A stretch of DNA of 64,000 bases from Adineta ricciae (lineage: Eukaryota > Rotifera > Eurotatoria > Adinetida > Adinetidae), in the NCBI GenBank assembly GCA_905250025.1, contig CAJNOJ010000381.1, positions 1 to 64,000 of the forward strand, given 5' to 3'. This document shows, in pieces, positions 109-59,482 of this stretch (positions are counted from its first letter, which is position 1; each line of letters begins with the position of its first letter). The notes beneath the pieces were generated by a model. The model was given only the letters and a program-made list of their open reading frames with translations, was not told where the DNA came from and ran no database searches. Position numbers and translations under genes: made by a program.

Positions 109-425
109 AGCAAACATGGGTAGGAATATCAGTCGGATTGAGAGCTAAGAAAATACTTGGCAGGTCTCCATTGAAAATTAATGCATGCCGTTATGAATAT
201 GCAAGTTTTAATCTGAATAAGAAGAATAGTTTTGATGTAAGTTAAATAAAAGAATTATTTATCTTCGGAGTAACTGTTTACATAAAGTCATTATCATCAA
301 TCATCTTCAATGTTATTCTTTTCTTCGCGTCTTTATAATATAAACTTTTCAAGAACACGATGATCAGTTGTATTCTTGTCGAACACGAATAGATACATTG
401 AAGCGATTTGAGAAGAAAATACGAA

Positions 426-4652: not shown

Positions 4653-4907
4653 ATGGGTTATTTTTCTCAATCGCCATCGAAACAAGTGATTTTCGTTCTA
4701 ATAATCTTGCTTTCCCTGTATCAAATATGTGAAAGTCGTTTCGCTTGGGATTTTGGTTCGTATTGTTTAAGTTATTGTGCCAAAATGAAGTATCGAACAA
4801 GTCCTGTGAGTGTTTGTTCGTGTCAATGGATTTCATCGAATCATCGACGAGGATTATTTGACAAGTTTTTGTTGAAGAATAATAACGATTTTTTTCGAAT
4901 TAAATAA
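4653..4907 (+). CDS. secreted four-cysteine mini-protein B
   Basis: 84 aa from the ATG at 4653. The reading frame extends upstream but that part lacks the signal-peptide character. A signal peptide (VIFVLIILLSLYQICES) is followed by SRFAWDFGSYC, C-x3-C-x12-C-x-C and SSNHRRGLF, matching the gene 390 bp upstream. The tails diverge. Signal sequence and C-terminus vary while the Cys core is constant, which suggests selection on the mature core. A polyA-type AATAAA follows at about 4920. Function unknown. Confidence 0.65.
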   Translation: MGYFSQSPSKQVIFVLIILLSLYQICESRFAWDFGSYCLSYCAKMKYRTSPVSVCSCQWISSNHRRGLFDKFLLKNNNDFFRIK

Positions 4908-4924: not shown

Positions 4925-7180
4925 AAAACAAGTTCAAGTTTCGATCGAAACCTATTTAAAAGAAGAAAAGTGTCCTTTTTTTTTAACTTAAATACCGATT
5001 AAATTTTAATAAAATCTGTGCGTTTGAGCGAAAAGAACTTTCTTTTCACTGGAACAGGCTAATCTGCTATAATTGATGATTATTTAATTAACTATCAGCG
5101 ATAGCGCTGATGCTATGCTCGTATTTAATATAAAGCATGAAGTTCATAGTTAGAAAAAATTTTCTTCGACTATCAGCACAGATCTTTATAACAAAAACTC
5201 TTCATCCGCAGTATTCTCTAGTTAGGCGATGTTTTTTTCCGAAGGTGTTTGAGGGACAGCGTAGATAGCAAACATGAACTACATATATCATACCGATTAG
5301 TAAATGTACTGTTGTGTGTGATGACTAAATAATCACGATACAAAGTTTGGGTGGAGAATCATATAATTTAATAAATACGATTGTCTTCTACGACTATTTT
5401 TATGTGTTTCCTTGATTATTTTCCAGTTCGTTACTTATCTATTTTTATCACAAAACGTATTCATTCAGTAAGTAATGTAAATTTGTATGTAGGTTCTGGC
5501 TTGATTATATAGTATATTTCCTGTTCTTATGGTATCTCATATCCAACTCATCAGCGTTTACATACTTATCTTCAAGAATAAAATTGAATGAGCAGTAAAA
5601 AAAACAATCGTCTTCTATGTTTGGCTATAGTTGCACCAACAAGTTAATCTGGTCTATATTCTATTGTGTGAATCGCTTTAGTGTAACACCATCAATAAAT
5701 CAAATCTACAATCAGATTTCGGTTATTCAAGGGATTCTTCTCCCTCAGAAATCGATTCCGTGAACAGTGCAACGGAAATTTATGAAACTTTCAGTAGACA
5801 GAAAACTTGATACGAAAAGAATTTGATAAAATTTTCATTCAATCAATTATTACAGATAAAAAGTTATTCGCCAAATACTCACAGAAACAGAACTTTCCGC
5901 TTGTAACATTTTCGGAACCGTCGGTAGCACCGAGAATAGTAAACTTTCTTTTTTAAATGAAGAAGAAACTTCGTAGACCTGTTTTCGTCTTCAATGAAAA
6001 TCTCATTGAATGAATCAGGCCAATGGATAACGGTTGAGCTCTCCATTGATCAAATTATTTAAAACGTAGTGAGTCGTTTCTTAAAAATATCCTTGTCAGT
6101 TCGAGGAACATGAAGAAGGATGGTTCGTACTGAATCGAATTTCCTTTCATATTCGCAATGATCGGCACCAAAGCCTTCTGCATCGACACATGTGTACTAT
6201 GGACTATTTAAATCAGGTGAAACACGCCGATCACGATTATCATATTTTGTGTCTGTGATAAAGCATCGTAAGCCGATTTCACACAAAGGACAAATACATA
6301 TCGGGTGGATGCCCATATATCTCAAATCGGATGAACGTGCGCAGTGAACAATCCCGTTGAAATATTACAAGACTGATCCAATCATTTCGAATTACATCGA
6401 CTGATAGTTTTCTCTTAATCAATGTTGTTTAGAACAACCTTTGCCATCAAAAACAGTCGGTAGGATAGGGATTGCTAAATCAAAGCAACGATCGGAAATC
6501 ATCAACTTCCACGGTAATCTAATCGATTTTTCTCAAACATATCAATATGGATTGCAAAAATTCTTCTTCCGTACGATAAGTTACATCTCGATTTATAATT
6601 TCTAATGAATAAATGTGTTAATTTGATATGGAAACGAACGGTTCTTTCATGATTATCATCGATTAGTTGAATGATAATTTCAGCAATAGAAATTCCCGAT
6701 GCATATCCCTGTTTCATCAATTGCATCGAGACAATCGATATGACCATCATTTGCGCGTACAGATCTTCAATTGTTACGTTCCTCTGCAAAAGTTTTGAAA
6801 AAGTCAACTTCGGTGTATGATCACAAGGTTTCACATGACACTTTGCTCACAGTCCATTTATACAAAAGCCTATTGATTTAAAGATGTCATCCAATTCTTC
6901 ACCGAGTAAATAAATTTGAAAACAATCCTAGTACAATGCATATCTGTCGTTGCATCTTGATAATAAAAGTGAACGCGAGTGTGCATGTGGTGAAGTGCAT
7001 ATATTTATTCATATAGCTGTACGTATACGCCCTCTAGTATGCATATGTTGACTTGGCTATTTAAATGATGTTTTTTTGTTGTTATATCTCGCCTTTAACT
7101 AATAAAAAATCCACATAGTTACTGTAGTAAAACTGAATTAAAAGTAAAGAGCAATCGTTTTCTGTATTGCTATGGTCCAT
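4925..7180. other. intergenic, partly duplicated flank
   Basis: No convincing gene. From about 5990 to 7180 the sequence is recognisably related to about 12090-13080: the same order of ATTGAATGAATCAG, GATAACGG and a run including CGAGTGTG...TATTTAT. Those two segments are the downstream flanks of the two GH31 genes. The 110-codon minus-strand frame at 6502-6834 is not conserved in the other copy, so I do not call it a gene. Confidence 0.55.
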
Positions 7181-7182
7181 CA

Positions 7183-10497
<3,315 letters not shown>

Positions 10498-11016
10498 GAA
10501 AATCATGAGAATCACTACTGATCAACACAAAACAACCACGTAGAGTAAGAGGTGTGATAAACAGATGCACAAAGTATGATTTGTTAAATTGAAAATGTGG
10601 CTGCATCTTTCGCACGACTTCACGCTTCGTAGGATTACCATATTACGCAAGAAATAGATAGGAAGAAAACTAATTCAACATAACAAGACTCGTGATCAGC
10701 TTTCCCTACATTCATGCCTTCTTCTGTTTGCATGTTGAAAAAAAGGCACTATCAAAAATAATTGGTTTCTCTGATTGGAATAACATGGACGAACACAGAG
10801 ATCGTCGAAGAAAGGAATAATATTGCTTCTTCACGGTTCAAGTTTATTAGTCATAATAGGTTTGAATAGCTCGGCTATTGATCTCTCTCGACGTTTAAAA
10901 CAGACGCACTTATACACGCACGTATATACATATATATCCAAACATATACGAACACATTCGTCGACTGGTATTTGTGTTCGTTTGAAGATCGTCCTTAGCC
11001 ACTGCCAAACTTACTA

Positions 11017-13085: not shown

Positions 13086-16494
<3,409 letters not shown>

Positions 16495-16748
16495 GGAAGT
16501 CGAGATGATCTGCAGAAGAAATTTCTCGTGAAAGTCTCCTTTGATCAACAAAAAAACAACCACCGCCTAGAATAAAAGGTGTGATAAGCAAATGCGCAAA
16601 GTGTAAGATAACCGACGAACTCTTTATTCACATATCTTTATGAAGAAAAACTTAAGAAAAAAAGCAACGAAGTAGGTTGTATGGTGAAAAGGTAATACGT
16701 AGACAGAAGATATACGTTAAACGTTTGCGAGACACTCTCAATAGAATT

Positions 16749-44047: not shown

Positions 44048-46624
44048 ATGTCTTGGAAAGAGAAGTTACGTCGTTCATCAACAGAAAAATCTTCGCCACC
44101 ATCATCGTCAATTAGAAAAGGAGGTATCGAGCTTTCGAATTCATTCGTTCCCAACGAAATCCAAGAGAACACTATTTCAACCCCATCGTCAACCTCGACA
44201 GTTCATCCACTACAACCAGTTGCTTCTTTCTCCGCCTTAGGTACCTCTGCTCAACAGTGGGCATATCAGAGAGGTGCCCAATCAGCACTAGCAACTACAG
44301 ATCAAATTGAAGCTGATATACGAGAGGCTAGAAATATCATCGCTAATTATTCTATCGAATCCTTAGAACTCTTGCATCTCGGTAAGTCGATCAAAGATAA
44401 TCGTCTCCTGCGATCGTATTCAAACGATACTTTTTAGTTGATCGTTGGATTCAGCAACTTCTGAACGAATTTCTACAACAACGCGAACATTTCAAACATC
44501 AATTGATGGAAATATGGGCGAAAGAAGATCTGACAAGTACTCAATACGATGACAACGAACGACTACGAAAAGTTTACACGGCATTAATTCAATTAGAAAA
44601 GGCTCGTGATGGTATTCTCTCACGCGACTCTTTCGACGAATTATACAATTTTCTCGGCAAAATCAATGACAATAACTTCTCCGAAATGAAAGAAAAGTTC
44701 AATTCAGTGCTTGAACATTATCTCAATATTCTACACCATTTGAGCATCATAGACAAAGAACTGAAGTTCGGTAATTATGATAATCATGTGTTCGATATCA
44801 AAGATAAATTATTAAGACTAAAAAAGCGATTCGACAAAGAATATCATACGATTTGCATTGTCGGATTAGAAAAGGCAGGCAAATCGACATTTATCAATGC
44901 ACTGCTTGGTCATGAGCTTCTTCCAACAGCGAGCGAACGTTGTACGCAGATCCGTACTGTTATTAAGCCATTTCTTCAAACCAATGATGCTCAACTATGC
45001 GCAAAGATTCACTTTTATGACGATAATCATTTCCGTGTGCTTTTCGAGAAAATGGCCAAGAAAAGCAATGAAACCGAACAGCAGTTTCTTCATCGTAAAG
45101 ACGAAGTTTTACGGAAAAGAGAAAGTTTAAAAACGAAATTTCCCGAAGAAAATCTGTGTATCGATGCGCACAATGAACGTGCGTCGTTCATCAAACAACT
45201 AAATGATTACATTACCGGAGAAGTGTATGTGAACATTGTTAAAGAAGTGGAGATTTATACAAGTAAACTTCCAGGTATGGATGATTGATTCAAAAGAAAA
45301 CAAGATTGTTTATTACCTATTTTTAGGAAAGAACTATGAACTTCTCGATGTCCCAGGCTTTGATTCACCTATCAAAGAACATCGTGATGCTGCTATTGAA
45401 GCGATTCGATCCGCTGATACATTTCTTTTTCTTACCAGTGGCCAACAACCAAGCTTAACAGGCCCACAAATTAATCTTCTTCAAGAAATTCAGCAGAATC
45501 ATCTCGAAGCCATGCAACGTGCTTTCGGAATCATCACCAAACTTGATCTTTGCCAAACAGCAGCCATGTATCAAGAGCACTATGAGAAAACATTTGCCGA
45601 ACTCATAGAAAAGCGCTTCAAACCAGATCGTATCTACGCAACTTGTTCGCGACTTGAAATTTCCAACGACAACTCCGAAGAATTTCACGTCATCTCTCGG
45701 AAACTGCAAAGCTTTGGTGATAATTTAACTGGTGGGTTCCAGCGATGTCGAGATAGTTTAAATAAATTCATCGAATGGGATCTACCGAAAACACATTTAA
45801 AGCAACTGATTGATGTGGGCAAAATGAAACTGCTCCAGCTAATTCACGAGCGTATCGAAAAAATCAAAGACAAACGAATTTTGCCAGAAAATCTGACAAG
45901 CATCTCAATCGAGGAGTACATTACGCAAAAAACAATGAAAGATTGGGATAAAACTTATTATAATGATTTCTTTCAACCAATTTTCGATCACGCGAATTAT
46001 TGGCATACGATGATTGTGACGAAAGAACGCGCGATATTTATTGAAGATGTTAAACAGAAGTTTCGTGAAACATTTCATGATGTGACAAAGGAATTTATGC
46101 AGCAAAAGTTTCCTATTGAACAATTAGCCTGTGAACAATACACAGCATCAAAATTACAGTTGAACATTCATCCTATTGATAATCAAATTCGAGAAAAATT
46201 AACTTTCGATTTGGAAAATCATATGGACACAACGGCGAAAATTCTCGCCGAATATTTATATTATAAATACATTTGCGAATTAGAAAATATTCTCAATAAG
46301 ATATCATCACCCACACAAGATCTATATCGAACGAAGTTAACATTAGAAAAATGCATTTATCAAGTTCATGCATTGGTTCTGAGAGTCTGTCGACCAGTCA
46401 TTACTGCAACTTTACGATATTCATATTTAGATCTGTCTGCGAAACAAGACGCAATTAATGAATTGATTTACATTGCGCCGACTGTTGCTTTCAACATAGC
46501 CAATATTCCAGATTCGGACGACAACGGTGATTTGCTTGGAACACAAATACTTGCGTCAGCAGAATCGTTAGCTGATAGAAGTGAAATGACCACATCGATT
46601 ATCAGGACACTTTTTAAGAAGTAA
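44048..46624 (+). CDS. dynamin-like GTPase
   Basis: Exons 44048-44381, 44438-45274 and 45327-46624 (introns 56 and 52 nt, phase 1) give 822 aa. A Ser-rich N-terminus and a helical region (about 112-250) precede the G domain. That domain has G1 GLEKAGKS (254-261), a plausible G2 Thr in the following helix, G3 DVPG (398-401) and G4 TKLD (461-464). A long helical C-terminal region without PH or proline-rich domain follows. This fits the wider dynamin superfamily, closer to bacterial dynamin-like or stress/immune GTPases than to classical dynamin. Such proteins remodel or tubulate membranes. It sits between the LRAT-GTPase and the ART-TPR gene. The second 5' copy is at 35803 and a 3' copy at 61256. 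Confidence 0.78.
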
Positions 46625-46695
46625 CGAGATATGGTTTCTCAGGTGACTTATACGCGTACAGTCATGTTTTTTGTAGTTTAAAAGATAAATACTTC

Positions 46696-49392
46696 ATGTT
46701 GAATTATATTTTTGTGACTAATGTTCGTCGAAATCTTCACTCTGTCAGTATGTATTTCAGATTTATTGTACCTATGTCGCAAATAATAACACCAAAGAAA
46801 GAAAATGAACATGATTTTCTTGTCGTGTGGTTACACGATGCAATGGACAACGATAATGAAGACTATCAAAACACACTTACACAACTTCGATGCATTACCA
46901 CCGAAATCCATTCGTTCATCGATAGTGATCAGTGCATAGAATTCATTCTTGATGATACTGCTGACACGAAAGTATATCTGATCGTTTCCGTACAATCTGT
47001 TCAGCATTTTGTACCATGCATTCATGATATCTCACAAATCGAATCGATCTTCATCTTGTGCAACACTCATAGTCATAGTCCAGATGAACAATGGATGAAC
47101 AAATGGTTCAAAGTAAAAGGTGTCTACACAGATATCGTAGATATTTGTCGACAAATAGTGCATCAGTATGAATACTGCACCATGTCTCTGAGTTTTGTTT
47201 CTCCTACTAGAGGATTAGATCAGTTAGATCCATCATTTATGTACACACAAATCATCAAAGAAATACTTCTCACCATCAAATTTGAGGATAAACACATCAA
47301 GGAATTCGTTAATTATTATTGTGATGCATTTGTAAATAACGAAACCGATCGGAATAAGGTGAAACAATTGGAAAAGAAATACCATCAGGAGTCGCCGATT
47401 TGGTGGTATACAACCGAGAGATTTCTATATGGAATGCTGAATCGTGCATTACGAGTGATGGACGGTGAAGTGATCACGTTGATGGGTTTTTTCATCAATG
47501 ATCTTCATCGACACATTGATCAATTACACAAAAAACAATTTGACAATGGTTCTACCGTTGAAAACTTCACAGTTTGTCGTGGTCAAGGTTTGACAAAGAG
47601 AGATTTTGATGAATTGGTGAAGTCAAAGGGCGGACTGATGTCATTCAATAATTTCTTGTCTACTAGTAGAAACATTGATGTCTCTTTACTTTTCGCTTCA
47701 GCGAATGGAATGAACGAGAACATCGTAAGCGTTCTTTTCGTCATGGAAATCGATCCTCAACGGTCGACGGTAGTGTTTGCTTCGATTCGAGACATCAGTC
47801 AGTTTCCACAGGAAGATGAAATACTCTTTTCCATGCACAGCATCTTTCGTATACACGATATCAAGCCAATGGAAGGGAATACAAAAGTGCATCAAGTGGA
47901 TTTGTCATTGACGAGCGACAATGATGAGGAATTGTGTACACTTACCGAACAAGTTCGTGAAGAAAGCTTCCCAAATGCAGAAGGCTGGTTCAGACTGGGC
48001 TTAGTACTAGCTCAAATGAAACAGTGTAATACAGCTGAGCGCATATACCGGGCTCTAGCTGATCAAAATCCTGAACTTGAACATGAGGCATTCATTAACA
48101 ACCAACTCGGCTTGATAAAACACAATCAAGGACAGTATGAGCAGGCACTTGTAGTTTTTCAGAAATCTTTGAATATGTTACAAAGACTATTTCCTCACAA
48201 TCATTCTAATATCGCTTCATCTTACAACAACATTGCTTTAGTCTATGCTGACATGGGAGATTATCCAAAAGCACTTTCGGCATTTGAAAAAATTCTTAAA
48301 ATTCAACTACAATCACTTCCTCCTGACCATCTTGACATTGCTACCTTCCACAACAATATTGGTACTATGTGTAAAAACATGAGTAATTATCCCAAAGCCT
48401 TTTCATCACATCAGCAAGCTCTCCATATTCGACAACAATCGCTTCCTCCCAATCATCCGGACATAGCTGATTCGTACAATAACATTGGTAACGTGTATGC
48501 CGCTATAGGTGATTATCTAAAAGCACTTTCATCATACCGGCAAGCTCTTGAAATTTACCAACAATCACAACTTCCCAATCATCCGGACATTGCTAAATCG
48601 TATAATAACATTGGCAGTATATATAAAAATATGGGAGTTTACAATAAAGCACTTGAATCACATGAAGAAGCGCTCAAAATCCGACAGAAATCCCTGCCTT
48701 CCAATCATCTTGATATTGCCACATCGTATAACAACATTGGCAATGTATATATAGACATAGGCGATTATCCGAAAGCTCTCTCATCACATCAAAAAGCGCT
48801 GACTATTTGCAAACAATCACTTCCTTCTAATCATCCTTATATCTCTGATTCATACGATAGCATCGGTAATATATATTCTAATATGGGTGATTATCCAGAA
48901 GCACTCTCATCATATAAACAAGCGCTTGAAATCCAACAGAAATCACTTTCTTTGGACCATCCTCATATTTCCGCATCGTACAACAACATTGGTAATGCAT
49001 ATAAAGACATGGGCGACTATCCAAAAGCCATCTTATTCCATGAACAAGCTCTTAAACTTCGACAGCAATCACTTTCCCCCAATCATTCTGACATCGCTGA
49101 TTCGTACAATAACATTGCAGTAGTGTACTCTGCTTTGGGTGATTATTCAAAAGCACTTGAATTATTTAAAAAATCCCTCAAAATCTGTCAACAATCACTC
49201 CCTTCCAATCATCTGGATACTGCTTCGTCCTACAACAATGTCGGTGCTGTGTATTTCGACATGGGTGACTATTCGAATGCCTATTTACATTATATGAGGG
49301 CCCTTCAAATTGGTCAGACAGCACTACCACCAACGCATCCTCATCTACAAATATACATAAGAAACGTCGACGAAGCAAGAAACAGATTGTGA
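46696..49392 (+). CDS. R-S-E ADP-ribosyltransferase with ten TPRs
   Basis: Up to 898 aa. The ATG at 46774 (MSQIITPKKENEHD) is an alternative start and the upstream 26 residues may be intronic (TATTTCAG just before). An N-terminal domain of about 150 residues precedes the ART fold: catalytic Arg295 (VCRGQGL), SFNNFLSTS (316-324) and ExE (EDE, 373-375) complete the R-S-E triad of arginine-type mono-ADP-ribosyltransferases. Ten 42-residue kinesin-light-chain-like TPRs follow, each SYNNIGxxYxxMGDYxKAL...HPDIA. ART-TPR proteins are strongly expanded in rotifers. The substrate is unknown. TPRs probably recruit partners. No signal peptide, so it is presumably cytosolic. Confidence 0.85.
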   Translation: MLNYIFVTNVRRNLHSVSMYFRFIVPMSQIITPKKENEHDFLVVWLHDAMDNDNEDYQNTLTQLRCITTEIHSFIDSDQCIEFILDDTADTKVYLIVSVQSVQHFVPCIHDISQIESIFILCNTHSHSPDEQWMNKWFKVKGVYTDIVDICRQIVHQYEYCTMSLSFVSPTRGLDQLDPSFMYTQIIKEILLTIKFEDKHIKEFVNYYCDAFVNNETDRNKVKQLEKKYHQESPIWWYTTERFLYGMLNRALRVMDGEVITLMGFFINDLHRHIDQLHKKQFDNGSTVENFTVCRGQGLTKRDFDELVKSKGGLMSFNNFLSTSRNIDVSLLFASANGMNENIVSVLFVMEIDPQRSTVVFASIRDISQFPQEDEILFSMHSIFRIHDIKPMEGNTKVHQVDLSLTSDNDEELCTLTEQVREESFPNAEGWFRLGLVLAQMKQCNTAERIYRALADQNPELEHEAFINNQLGLIKHNQGQYEQALVVFQKSLNMLQRLFPHNHSNIASSYNNIALVYADMGDYPKALSAFEKILKIQLQSLPPDHLDIATFHNNIGTMCKNMSNYPKAFSSHQQALHIRQQSLPPNHPDIADSYNNIGNVYAAIGDYLKALSSYRQALEIYQQSQLPNHPDIAKSYNNIGSIYKNMGVYNKALESHEEALKIRQKSLPSNHLDIATSYNNIGNVYIDIGDYPKALSSHQKALTICKQSLPSNHPYISDSYDSIGNIYSNMGDYPEALSSYKQALEIQQKSLSLDHPHISASYNNIGNAYKDMGDYPKAILFHEQALKLRQQSLSPNHSDIADSYNNIAVVYSALGDYSKALELFKKSLKICQQSLPSNHLDTASSYNNVGAVYFDMGDYSNAYLHYMRALQIGQTALPPTHPHLQIYIRNVDEARNRL
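48090..49353. repeat. 126-bp tandem coding repeat array (ten TPR units)
   Basis: Ten consecutive 126-bp units encode the TPRs, with recurring TACAA(C/T)AACATTGG and CAATCACTTCC. All units have equal length, so copy number can change without breaking the frame. Confidence 0.8.
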
Positions 49393-51997: not shown

Positions 51998-52343
51998 GGT
52001 CTAAAATATCAATGGAACTAAACCAATTGTTGATCTCGTATATATATATATACGTTACAAATTTCCAGCAAGAATTCTTCTGGAAGAAAAGAAAACTTTT
52101 TTTCCCTTTTCTACTCTTATCGAAAAAGATTATTAATCTGATGGTGTCATGTATTATTAATGCGCAGCACGAATTTAAAAGCAAATAGGCAACTCGGAAG
52201 TGGATGAGTCAAACTTGTCTTAAGTATTATATACAGACATGTATGTTGGAAAAAACATTTATTAACTGTGCTATATCCACTTTTATAAAACCTCATATTC
52301 ATTTCACATACACGCATTTTTTGACGAATCGTTCAATCAATTC

Positions 52344-53203
52344 ATGGCGCAATACGACAATTGTGCTGCTGATTACGTCTTGGCAAAGAAAGACAGCTTT
52401 CGTGTCGACGTTGAATATTTCACATTTCTTCATCGTATGCTTTTACCAGTTTTTCAGCAACAAAATGCCAATGTGCAACAAGATCAATTGCTAGCTGGAA
52501 AACGTGTTCTTGATCTTGCCTGTGGTGATGGCCATTATACACGTAAGTGCGAATTAAACAAAGTTGAAAGGTATATGAATAATTCAAATCTCGTTCTGCT
52601 TTAGGCAAATTAAAAGAACATCTCGGTGCGTCCGAAGTTGTTGGTGTTGATATTAGTCAAGCTATGATTGATATTGCACGGGCTAAAGAACAAGCTCAAC
52701 CGCTTGGAATTATTTATGAAGTAGCTGATGTTCAATCGCTTTCTTCACCAGCAGTTAAATATGATGTAATTACAGCTTTTTATTTACTGAATTTTGCTCG
52801 AACAAATGAAGAGCTAAAACGAATGGTGACTGCCACCAGCAACAATTTGGCTGATGGACAAACATTCTTTGCTATTATAACGAATGTTTGTGGTGATGAA
52901 AGTACATACAACAATGAAAAACATCGCAAATATGCATTCATGCGTGAAGCTAAGCTGAAAAATGGCTTCCTTTCCGATGGTGATGAAGTGAAATACACAC
53001 ATTTCAATGATAGAGATAAAACTTCATTTTCATATATAACTTATTATCTTTCGCCAAAAACATATGAACAAGTGTTTAAAGAAGCTGGCTTCAAGACATT
53101 TCAGTGGGTGCCATTTGAAAGTGATCCTAAAGTTGAAGATCGAGCCTTCTACGATGATTTTGTTCAATATGCACCAGCGATTGGAATCATCGCATCAAAA
53201 TAA
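52344..53203 (+). CDS. class I SAM-dependent methyltransferase
   Basis: Exons 52344-52542 and 52605-53203 (62-nt phase-1 intron) give 265 aa. It shows motif I VLDLACGDGHYTR, the acidic post-I VVGVDIS, motif II-like VADVQSL and YDVITAFYLLNFA, and a C-terminal substrate-binding part. The N-terminus YDNCAADYVLAKKDSFR is typical of small-molecule methyltransferases that I associate with bacterial and fungal secondary-metabolite clusters. No signal peptide. It is transcribed divergently from the SDR, whose ATGs lie 347 nt apart, so a shared promoter region is possible. Substrate unknown. Confidence 0.82.
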
Positions 53204-53781: not shown

Positions 53782-54526
53782 TTATGTTGATTGCTTGGCT
53801 AAATATTCTTTAGCACGTTGCCCTACAAATTGTCGGCCAGGATTGTTCTCTTCTCCATTGCTATTAATCCATTCGTCAGGCTTGAATAAATCAAAAAGAC
53901 CAACACGAATAAGAACAGGCACACATCGTTCAAGTTCAATTCGAGCTTCATCATCTTTTTTGTTTTCTCCCTTATTGAATCGTTCAATATTTTTTAGCAT
54001 TGCAGCAACAGTACCCGATTGCACTGAGCTACCGTCTTTTAGTTGAATAGCAGGTAACGAAGCGCCATCGGCAACATTCAAAATACGACAATAGGTCGCT
54101 GCTACATTATCATTTGCAGTTGAATCATCTATGAAAGAAAGTCAAGAATAGTTTTCGTCAGCAATCATATAATATTTATGAGAATAATCGTTCATACAGA
54201 ATCCGACAAATGTTATAAGTGCTTAAGGCTATAATAGAATACAGCTGAAAGCGATATTCATAAAATTTGTAGTAGCTGACTTGAATTTTACTTATGCAAT
54301 CCAACACATATGCGTGGTCAACAATTCTATAGGATTATGTAAGATGATCGGTAGCGGGATCCAACGAGATCGAGAGTGTCGATACATCTTTAGTAATCGG
54401 ATTCCTTATCGGATTTGTGGAACTGAGTTTCTAGATAGCAAATCTTTTCTTACCAGAATTACTTGGAGTACTCTGTAGATTATTATTCATCGTTGTATCT
54501 TCGGAATTGTTCGTTATGTGAGCCAT
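53782..54526 (-). CDS. 139-aa conserved-looking protein, function unknown
   Basis: Exons 54526-54454 and 54128-53782 with a 325-nt intron (phase 1). After a polar N-terminus (MAHITNNSEDTT) comes a compact domain with LPAIQLKDG, VQSGTVAAMLKNIERFNKGE, VPVLIRVGLFDLFKPDEW and NPGRQFVGQRAKEYL. I have the impression that small proteins of this type occur in bacteria and fungi, but cannot name the family or confirm it. No catalytic motif or membrane segment. The intron is long for this window. It sits between the methyltransferase and the CDPS-P450 gene, so it may be part of the same acquired locus. Confidence 0.65.
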
Positions 54527-54954: not shown

Positions 54955-57646
54955 ATGTCTGAATCCGATTATCAAGAAATTCCCAATCGTCCGTGGCAAA
55001 AATCGACACTTATCGAGCAAAACAATAAGAACGATCATGTAATTATTACAATCAGTCCGTCTCAATTCCGTTCACTATTATCATCACCTAATGCTAGTAT
55101 GGCTTTGGCTCGTCACATTGTCAGTTATGTTCTTCATCAAATCTCCGTATCAGATATTATTATTCTCATTGCTGATGAAATTCAAAAATACAATGTTGCA
55201 GTATTTGAACATAAAAATGCACAAAGTTCTCTTAAAACAGCCAAAGCACAAGGGGAAAAAATATCTAGTTTATTTTCCCGAGTACGTGCTGACCTATCAC
55301 TGGATGATTCTCAAAAAATAAAAATCATACACTGGGAAGATATGGTTTCATCAAGTAATTACGATGCACGTGTTCAACATATCCGTCAATATATCGACAA
55401 TAATCAATCCCAATGCATTCCATTGATTGACGTGGTAAAATACATATGATTTAGTTCGATCTAGATACGATTTTATATCATCATTATTTTTAGGTGTGTA
55501 ATGAATACGCTCGAGCACGTAATCCGAACAAGAACCTCAAGCAGAAAAATCTTTTTTTCTTGCGTGAGTATGTAATGCATGAATTACCTGCATTACTCGA
55601 TGGAATTGAATATGGAGGAAATACATACAAATTTATGCTTCATCCAGTGTTGAAAACGAACAGTTACAACGGATATGATCAGCGTGAAGCAATGGTCAAT
55701 TTACTTAACTATATGCGAGAATATTATTTACCGTCAACTGAAAATCCAACTTTGATTTGCCATATCTTTGACATCGAGTTTTCAAATGCATTGATTGCTA
55801 CCAATGACGAATCACAAACTGATCCATCAGATTCTTCAACAACAACTCAATCTGATTTAGATTGTGAGCGACCAGAAACATCGAACACATCGATCCAAAA
55901 CATCGACATCATTTCTGGTCATCTATGGTTAACCTTAATTATGCTGGTAAATGATTGCTTTTCATATTAATTCTCATTTCTTGTTTTCTATCGATTTAGT
56001 TAGCAATATTATTTATTAATCGCTTCTGGTTACCCATATTTTGCGTCAGTGTGGCTACCTGTAGTCTGTTATATCTTTATATGTTATTAATACAACAAAT
56101 ATCAAAACGTGGGCAATGGCTGTCAACTTCAACTGAGCAATCGATTTTGGGTACCGACTATTGTTCATTTTTTGGAGATTTACCGGCTATTCAAGAGTGT
56201 CAAAATGGCTATTTTTTATACAATTTGCGAATTGAGTTAGGCCGTCCCCGTGCATATCGAATTTGGATGGGCCCAGAACCGGCTTTGATGTTAGCTCATC
56301 CTCAATCGGTTAAAGACTTCTGGGAACAACATAAAGAGAAAGAAGTTGAACGCGATGTTCATCTTGGCTGGCCATTAGAAATGCTTATGAGTCATGGTGT
56401 AGGATTTCGTTCCATGGATGATCGAAGTCGAATTACAAAATATTTTCACAACTGTTTTGGATCGAGTCAAGTTCGATGCTTTGATAAACACTTAGAAACA
56501 ACAATTATGAATTGGTTTCATCAATCTAATGATTTGACTTCTTTAAATTATAAAGACATCAAATATTTAGCACATGATGCAGGTGTACATCTATTTCTCG
56601 GCCCAATTGGCTTTGATCATTTAAATGAACTACACTCGTTAGTTGATCAACTTGGAGAATTAATGACAGAAGCGTTTGATGCTCGATGGACTAATTTACC
56701 TGTTATTGGCTATTATTTCTTACCAAGATCTTATAAATTAAGAAAACGTATTCGTCGATTTAATCAACAAATTCGAAATGTTCTTTTGAAGGTAAGATCA
56801 GTTTGAGTATACAGAGAAAAAACAGAAATTTCGTCTCATGAATCATAAAACAAATGTATCTTTTTTCTTTTCCATTAGATTATCAATGCTTATCGTCTAA
56901 CTCCTGATAACGACGACGAAAACGAAAATATTTCTCTTTTAGCACGTTTTGCACGAGATGCTAATCCTTCAATTACATTTGATGAGTTAACTGACACAAT
57001 TGTAGAAGGTTTATTGGCACCAAACGACGGTACTGCTGGAACATTTATGTATACATTATTACTACTGGCAATGAATCCACATATTCAAAATAACGCCAGA
57101 GAAATGCTTCAAAATGCGCAAGGTAAATATTTGTTCATACGATAGCGTCAATATAATACATTTTTATTTGTTATAGATCTCACATTAAAATCTATCGAAA
57201 ATTTCAAATATTTGGATCAAATTCTAAATGAATGTCAACGTTTATTTCCTATTTTTATGTTTAATGTGCCTGAATTTGCAAGTCAAGAAATGACAGTCAG
57301 TGGTGTACGTATACCAAAAAATACTATGGTCATGTTAGATGTGATGTCATTGAATCGTAACGAGGAGACATGGGGACCAGATCCATTAAGTTTTCGTCCG
57401 GAGCGTTTCGATCCACCCGTTTCACCGATGACAATCAAATCTTATCATGGATTTGGTAATGGTCACTTTCGACGATGTCTTGGCCAATACATGATTAAGA
57501 GTTTACATAAACTCTTTCTTGTCCATCTTTTAACTCGAAAACAAGTACAACTACATACCAATATTGCAAGTATCAACGAAATCGAGAGATTTCGTTTGCC
57601 ATTTATTTACATCCCTAATCAATCAGTGAAACTTCTACAACTATAA
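54955..57646 (+). CDS. cyclodipeptide synthase-like domain fused through a membrane segment to cytochrome P450
   Basis: Exons 54955-55434, 55494-55946, 56000-56791, 56879-57122 and 57177-57646 join in frame into 812 aa (an ATG at 54892 would add 21). N-terminal half: ISPSQF (Ser36), SDIIILIADEIQKYN, and REYVMHELPALL, with Tyr186 and Glu190 at Y-x3-E spacing. Then His210-Pro211 lies 20 residues on, where XYP-type cyclodipeptide synthases have Tyr-Pro. These enzymes use two aminoacyl-tRNAs to make a diketopiperazine. Residues about 303-345 are hydrophobic (LWLTLIML then LAILFINRFWLPIF). The P450 part has an atypical I-helix (APNDGTAGT, 622-630), ExxR (675-678), FRPERF and the haem loop FGNGHFRRCLG with Cys757. 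That loop has one residue more than the canonical FxxGxRxCxG. No stop or start separates the halves. Confidence 0.72.
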
Positions 57647-58561: not shown

Positions 58562-59482
58562 ATGGAATCTCGAGCACATAACTATGCAATTAAATCTTCT
58601 CCAACAGCAAACGATCATACAAGTACAAAAAGATGTACAACCGGTATGCTTATCTTTGTTGGAATTTGTTTACTGCTTATTATTCTTGGACTTGGACTTG
58701 GACTCGGCCTTCGATTAGGTCTTAGATCGTCAAGTTCTATATCAACTTGTGACACTGCTACTGCTAAGTGTGGGTGTCCATCAATTTCGCCAAATATCAC
58801 CTCTCGCATTGTTAACGGAAATATCGCTACATCGAACAGTTGGCCATGGATGGTAGCGATTTATATGAGTAACGGCAGACTTTGTGGCGGTACACTCGTG
58901 ACATACGAACATGTTCTTACAGCAGCACACTGTGTAAGTGATGTAACAAGTATTGATGTTGTTGTTTACGCAGGCATTCAAAAGCTGTCAGAACGGTTCA
59001 ACGGACAAGTACGGAATGTTTCTGTCATAACCGTCCATTCAGAATATTCTGATACTAACAAGACGAATGATTTGGCTATACTTAAGTTATCTTCGCCAAT
59101 TATTCCAAGTGCAACAACAAGTCTATGCTGTTTACCTACAATGAGTTCCAAACCTTCAATAGGAGACACGGCTATTTATATCGGTTGGGGTAGAACATCA
59201 CCTTCTTCGGGCTTTTCTGATGAACTTCGACAATCAGTCACACGCGTAGTTGATTCGTCACTCTGTTATTATGCTCCGATAACAGATAACCAAATATGTA
59301 CTGGAAATACTACTAGTATCGCATGTTACGGCGAAAGTGGTAGTCCATTGATGATAAATATCAACAATGCATGGGCATGTGTTGGAGTAGTAAACATGGG
59401 ATTGTTAACTTGTGATTCTTATGTAGTTTTCACTCGAGTAGCTCATTATACTTCGTTTATTTCAAATGCCACATCTACATAG
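58562..59482 (+). CDS. membrane-anchored trypsin-like serine protease (S1) with altered GDSGGP
   Basis: 306 aa from the ATG at 58562; the frame upstream has no ATG. A cytoplasmic tail of about 35 residues and a strongly hydrophobic helix (FVGICLLLIILGLGLGLGL) make it type II. The stem has a CGCPSIS motif and the activation site SRIVNG. The S1 domain follows, with TAAHC (His), TNDLAIL (Asp) and the Ser region ACYGESGSPL. The usual GDSGGP is GESGSP: the Asp that normally pairs with the new N-terminus is Glu and one Gly is Ser, while the catalytic Ser is kept. It may be active with altered zymogen control or be weakly active. Single exon, unlike most genes here. Confidence 0.82.
   Translation: MESRAHNYAIKSSPTANDHTSTKRCTTGMLIFVGICLLLIILGLGLGLGLRLGLRSSSSISTCDTATAKCGCPSISPNITSRIVNGNIATSNSWPWMVAIYMSNGRLCGGTLVTYEHVLTAAHCVSDVTSIDVVVYAGIQKLSERFNGQVRNVSVITVHSEYSDTNKTNDLAILKLSSPIIPSATTSLCCLPTMSSKPSIGDTAIYIGWGRTSPSSGFSDELRQSVTRVVDSSLCYYAPITDNQICTGNTTSIACYGESGSPLMININNAWACVGVVNMGLLTCDSYVVFTRVAHYTSFISNATST

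Follow-up and report, generated by a model that had tools for sequence, protein, structure and literature searches.

A predicted cyclodipeptide synthase–cytochrome P450 fusion gene in the bdelloid rotifer Adineta ricciae

A stretch of 64,000 nucleotides of the Adineta ricciae genome (the window; assembly GCA_905250025.1, contig CAJNOJ010000381.1, positions 1 to 64,000) was analysed. At positions 54955–57646 it holds a conserved gene predicted to encode a cyclodipeptide synthase (CDPS) fused to a cytochrome P450, and the corresponding function is likely. The source contig (C381) measures 86,764 bases in an assembly of 130,461,839 bases in 1,033 contigs. An initial annotation, made from the letters alone, had placed a CDPS-like domain, a membrane anchor and a P450 on one reading frame of an animal genome, and this arrangement is supported by the analysis reported here. 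The features of the gene are the following, with a second copy in the same genome (C223) as reference for the introns.

54955–55434, plus strand: exon 1, residues 1–160, N-terminal portion of the CDPS, including Ser34 (55054–55056), its likely catalytic residue
55435–55493, plus strand: intron 1, 59 bp, phase 0; counterpart in C223 after residue 156
55494–55946, plus strand: exon 2, residues 161–311, remainder of the CDPS (Tyr186, Glu190, His210-Pro211), linker and start of the membrane segment
Residues ~263–298, plus strand: linker, within exon 2, weakly conserved
55947–55999, plus strand: intron 2, 53 bp, phase 0, at the junction of the CDPS and P450 halves; counterpart in C223 after residue 309
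55908–56092, plus strand: membrane segment, residues 299–342, split by intron 2, two hydrophobic stretches of 19 residues
56000–56791, plus strand: exon 3, residues 312–575, end of the membrane segment and N-terminal portion of the P450
56792–56878, plus strand: intron 3, 87 bp, phase 0
56879–57122, plus strand: exon 4, residues 576–656, P450 I-helix with APNDGTAGT (622–630) and Gly626
57123–57176, plus strand: intron 4, 54 bp, phase 1
57177–57646, plus strand: exon 5, residues 657–812 and stop, ExxR (675–678), PERF (731–734) and haem-ligand Cys757 (57476–57478)

Rebuilding the exon model yielded a single frame of 812 amino acids plus stop, with all four introns of the GT-AG type. The product is identical in every letter to A. 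ricciae protein P0001, found in a search of 5.77 billion proteins and carried in databases as ‘unnamed protein product’ and ‘Cytochrome P450’; the five-exon, phase-matched model proposed initially was hereby borne out. Retention of any of the four introns brings an early stop in frame, which for intron 2 ends the chain after 318 amino acids. Upstream of the assigned ATG the frame stays open and contains a further ATG, so the exact start codon is uncertain. At the level of the reading frame, both domains stand on one chain with the CDPS first, as in CDPS 71 of Streptomyces.

Homology of the N-terminal half to CDPSs was found by phmmer and hmmsearch against PDB sequences, the closest solved sequence relative being FoCDPS (PDB 31ee, 31eg; 2.8e-7, and 1.4e-16 with a profile). 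A fold search with the predicted model also returned CDPSs, in agreement with their class-I aminoacyl-tRNA synthetase-like Rossmann fold, at an identity to AlbC of 11%. The Pfam family PF16715 scores the protein at 12.2 of 27 bits, under its gathering cut-off; since this score is a detection threshold and not a biochemical criterion, the shortfall does not by itself exclude membership. The proposed CDPS match fails with Pfam but stands in the sequence, profile and fold searches of the PDB.

Three motifs occur once each in the product: ISPSQF (33–38), REYVMHELP (184–192) and LHPV (209–212). Ser36, initially taken as the catalytic residue, has to be given up for this role, since P0005 and P0037 have Ala at its position. 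Ser34 is the most likely nucleophile: it directly follows a predicted strand (29–33) and is invariant in the four aligned Adineta CDPSs, whereas Ser36 is not kept. The choice of Tyr186 and Glu190, four residues apart, as CDPS helix residues proved right: both are invariant in the same four proteins and align with a Tyr and a Glu of FoCDPS. The AlbC counterparts of Ser34, Tyr186 and Glu190 are Ser37, Tyr178 and Glu182, and its XYP motif is X40-Tyr202-Pro203. In the rotifer protein the corresponding residues of the motif are Gln37, His210 and Pro211, so that the Pro fits and the Tyr is replaced. The His had been read correctly, but it is no lone oddity, as His-Pro is present at the equivalent place in FoCDPS and in all four aligned Adineta copies. 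Ser34, Tyr186, Glu190 and His-Pro are kept among these copies at identities down to 30%. On sequence grounds, the CDPS of the window is of a non-NYH, FoCDPS-like type and not a canonical XYP enzyme.

The C-terminal half has the P450 fold, and the anticipated ExxR, PERF and haem Cys were all recovered, once each, as ECQR (675–678), PERF (731–734) and FGNGHFRRCLG (749–759) with Cys757. P450s usually carry a FxxGxRxCxG haem motif and an acid-alcohol pair in the I-helix. Neither signature is present in its usual form: the haem motif is one residue longer, and Gly626 occupies the position of the I-helix Thr in an alignment with BM3, a position at which none of the 15 proteins P0001–P0015 has Thr or Ser. 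P450s without this Thr are known and the membership of the family stands. Between the halves the expected hydrophobic anchor is present, although in the form of two stretches (299–317 and 324–342), which AlphaFold models as one long helix (301–348). The P450 part was modelled poorly from a 17-row alignment (mean predicted local distance difference test score 55.7) and well from a 38-row alignment (86.9; predicted template modelling score, pTM, 0.64), which left out P0018, P0024, P0027, P0029, P0030 and P0032. Aminoacyl-tRNA is cytosolic and P450s of the endoplasmic reticulum (ER) face the cytosol, so a single membrane crossing by the anchor is not expected. The two hydrophobic stretches suggest a hairpin with both domains in the cytosol, though the model gives a single helix.

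Two further CDPS and P450 loci were found in the A. ricciae genome (C223 and C43), the halves standing together at all three CDPS loci. The C223 copy encodes 812 amino acids, 58% identical, and its four introns match those of the window in place and phase. Between the window and C223, nonsynonymous (dN) and synonymous (dS) divergence were 0.29 and 2.4 for the CDPS, 0.27 and 2.0 for the P450, and 0.46 with saturated dS for the membrane segment; by these values both domains are under purifying selection. Recurrence of the structure in other copies, together with this selection, argues that the fusion is beyond chance. At C43 (L026:3862-6709) a CDPS frame of 354 amino acids (TGA at L026:4924) and a P450 frame of 549 amino acids (ATG at L026:5060) are separated by 133 nt, and a T-rich, acceptor-like TTTTTAG ends at 5054, just 5′ of the P450 ATG. 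None of the 15 in-frame GT-AG joins listed was convincing, although a join from GTTTAA at 4905 is still conceivable because C223 itself uses GTT donors. C43 is probably a tandem, unfused pair, and perhaps represents the older state. Pieces of an ABC transporter lie upstream of it on the other strand (L038:2954-4833; Pfam ABC_tran 1e-17, ABC_membrane 1e-30). At C288, C237 and C90 (L028, L029 and L030) the genome also has P450-like pieces belonging to this family, 42–59% identical to the window protein when compared piecewise and with no CDPS match; these are perhaps decayed copies or intron-split genes.

Relatives were also present in other bdelloids. The predicted protein P0005 of A. steineri (842 amino acids) is fused and aligns over 99%. 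In A. vaga, B3G4M5 matches CDPS exon 1 and B3G4M4 the CDPS end, anchor and P450; their database numbers are neighbouring, both group with the C223 copy in trees (95/95 and 99/98), and they look like one gene split by annotation. The P450-only record P0004 of Rotaria sordida is nested in the fused clade (96/92), a placement suggesting that the fusion predates the split of Adineta and Rotaria. Nine further database records (P0035–P0043, including one of A. vaga) match exon 1, with the match ending at the place of intron 1. The P450s P0006–P0015, 38–44% identical and including P0010 of Rotaria sp. Silwood2, share the lengthened haem motif and the lack of an I-helix Thr or Ser, but their records contain no CDPS domain. 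The CDPS tree comprised 14 rows, with P0044 left out; in the P450 tree the outgroup branches were long (six of the 18 weaker matches P0016–P0033 were used).

A PF16715 family search of the A. ricciae genome returned no match, but is uninformative, the 14 control genomes being blank as well. Scans of bacterial and archaeal genomes with CDPS alignments A1 and A4 gave 37 and 48 pattern matches, not one of which was confirmed; as each scan uses two short patterns, bacterial donors are still conceivable. A protein search with words from residues 1–262 returned only P0001 and P0002 and missed the known P0005; its outcome is therefore no evidence for a lack of such fusions elsewhere.

We consider it reasonably probable, with room for doubt, that the gene encodes a single enzyme of the ER membrane with two catalytic domains, the CDPS making a cyclodipeptide and the P450 oxidising it. 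The CDPS domain would take two aminoacyl-tRNAs, the substrates of known CDPSs (PMC5816076), in the cytosol. Ser34 would hold the first aminoacyl group, positioned by Tyr186 and Glu190, and attack by the second tRNA-borne amino acid followed by ring closure would give the cyclodipeptide. Linker and membrane segment would keep the P450 beside the CDPS, and with electrons from the host NADPH-P450 reductase it would oxidise this product. Bacterial CDPS-associated P450s are described to hydroxylate, aromatise, couple or dimerise the CDPS product (PMC7954767). Because the I-helix is without its usual alcohol residue, the reaction here may be coupling, desaturation or substrate-assisted oxidation, not plain hydroxylation. 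The end product would probably be a defensive or signalling diketopiperazine.

Several observations weigh against this coupled two-domain enzyme. Of the 11 relatives scanned with the Pfam CDPS model, none reached the cut-off; six were listed (best 23.0 of 27 bits, P0034), and the five not listed are exon-1 fragments. The motif Tyr is replaced by His, the linker shows weak constraint (dN 0.75, dS 1.5 over 36 codons, window against C223), and the two adjacent open frames of C43 indicate that not every copy requires the fusion. The modelled single helix, if it crossed the membrane once, would put the domains on opposite sides, a misfit with a CDPS that works in the cytosol and a P450 that faces it. 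The divergence of the CDPS (12.2 bits, motif His) would also agree with a degenerate or repurposed aminoacyl-tRNA-binding module which regulates or localises the P450, the latter being the sole working enzyme. This fits with the lack of a CDPS in the records of the close P450 relatives P0004 and P0006–P0015 and at C288, C237 and C90, but a module freed from catalysis is difficult to reconcile with the invariance of Ser34, Tyr186, Glu190 and His-Pro in four of four copies, with a CDPS dN/dS as low as that of the P450, and with His-Pro in FoCDPS, which was deposited under the name of cyclodipeptide synthase. We regard such a module as unlikely, though deserving attention.

Bdelloids trans-splice leaders, and the 812-residue chain might be a gene-prediction artefact over two separate genes of a short operon. 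The separate frames and the acceptor-like sequence of C43 would suit this, and a separate P450 start is conceivable at a Met near the anchor end common to the window (Met339) and A. vaga P0003. This explanation seems quite improbable: the frame of the window and of C223 runs across the linker and into the phase-0 intron 2 at matching places (49 stop-free codons, P ~0.025 per copy by base composition), P0003 and P0005 also read through, translation from Met339 would leave the P450 without its anchor, and C223 is without that Met, the only one in its first 60 exon-3 residues being Met312. The long, weakly conserved linker and the unsettled relative placement of the domains in the model (pTM 0.64) leave room for two active but uncoupled halves, where the CDPS product leaves, the P450 uses other substrates, and the fusion serves co-expression and membrane placement. 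The association of the halves at three of three CDPS loci and the action of bacterial CDPS-associated P450s on the cyclodipeptide itself, as described in PMC7954767 and PMC2922099, make this very improbable.

The surroundings of the fusion were also inspected. Upstream lie a methyltransferase gene (52266–53203, plus strand; Methyltransf_25, E 1e-11), a possible tailoring enzyme or mere neighbour, and a DUF7709 gene (53785–54138, minus strand; E 5e-31); downstream lies a trypsin gene (58562–59482, plus strand; E 2.5e-47). Relatives of all three accompany the C223 copy (74%, 68% and 71%, respectively), the trypsin gene there on the opposite side of the fusion and the opposite strand. Because these shared neighbours look like a duplicated chromosome block, the idea of a gene cluster at the fusion was rejected; around C43 none of the three was matched (9,901 bases of L026, E 1e-5). 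Further away, a tetratricopeptide repeat protein (46618–49389, plus strand) has an ADP-ribosyltransferase exoenzyme-like stretch (PF03496, E 3.4e-7), and relatives with 34% identity adjoin the P450-like fragments at C288 and C237 (L028, L029). Open frames at 8819–10521 and 14816–16566 on the minus strand are repeated 5,997 bases apart, probably by recent duplication since two pairs agree over the 60 residues compared. TGTGGG, which we take to be the bdelloid telomere unit, and its complement CCCACA were absent from the terminal 9,965 bases of the contig, leaving a telomeric position unsupported.

If the gene works as it looks, it would constitute an unrecognised animal route to make and oxidise small peptide compounds, and perhaps a second peptide-making system in bdelloids beside nonribosomal peptide synthetase and polyketide synthase (PKS-NRPS) clusters, overlooked because the Pfam model does not reach the rotifer CDPS. 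This bears on bdelloid pathogen resistance. In 2024, A. ricciae and A. vaga were screened for peptide-making genes by way of adenylation, carrier and condensation domains (PMC11258130), none of which a CDPS has; the words ‘cyclodipeptide’, ‘diketopiperazine’ and ‘CDPS’ are absent from the main text of that paper. It describes a P450 gene that is upregulated and adjoins a PKS-NRPS cluster. We found no literature on bdelloid cyclodipeptides, and the few papers returned for CDPSs of rotifers or metazoans do not, by their titles, treat animal CDPSs, in a search mostly of open literature with subscription journals thinly covered. As both proposed steps lie in a single open reading frame, the hypothesis can be tested by expressing one gene. 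A fuller scenario, in which a bdelloid-own, membrane-tethered enzyme turns aminoacyl-tRNAs into oxidised cyclodipeptides, fused before the Adineta–Rotaria split from a C43-like pair, with a fungal-type CDPS obtained by gene transfer and a non-hydroxylating P450, is as a whole tentative. The CDPS may be of fungal type, as hinted by the name FoCDPS alone, ‘Fo’ perhaps standing for Fusarium oxysporum.

FoCDPS resembles the rotifer CDPS in His-Pro and in the aligned helix Tyr and Glu, but its deposited chain of 271 amino acids leaves no room for a P450. In the survey of PMC5816076, sea anemones, corals and marine worms, animals like the rotifer, have CDPSs of the NYH type, and eukaryotic XYP CDPSs are fungal. 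The animal CDPSs known in 2010 were described as stand-alone (PMC2922099), and according to a 2022 review CDPSs occur in the eukaryotic phyla Ascomycota, Annelida, Ciliophora and Cnidaria (PMC11610984); a non-NYH rotifer CDPS, fused to a membrane P450 and preserved across an ancient duplication, would bring in a further animal phylum and a further architecture. Rv2275/CYP121 and YvmC/CypX resemble the proposed system in that a dedicated P450 oxidises the CDPS product but, as described, they are separate proteins with P450s free in the bacterial cytosol (PMC7954767). Closest in layout is CDPS 71 of Streptomyces roseochromogenes, with an N-terminal CDPS of ~240 amino acids and a C-terminal P450 of 410 on one chain, the isolated CDPS half being active and making mainly cWY (PMC5816076). 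Compared by description, CDPS 71 is bacterial, of the NYH type and presented with no mention of an anchor, whereas the rotifer protein has Gln-His-Pro, an anchored P450 and an animal host. Since this Streptomyces fusion was already described, the novelty claimed initially does not extend to the CDPS-P450 fusion as such and is narrowed to animals and to these types of CDPS and P450.
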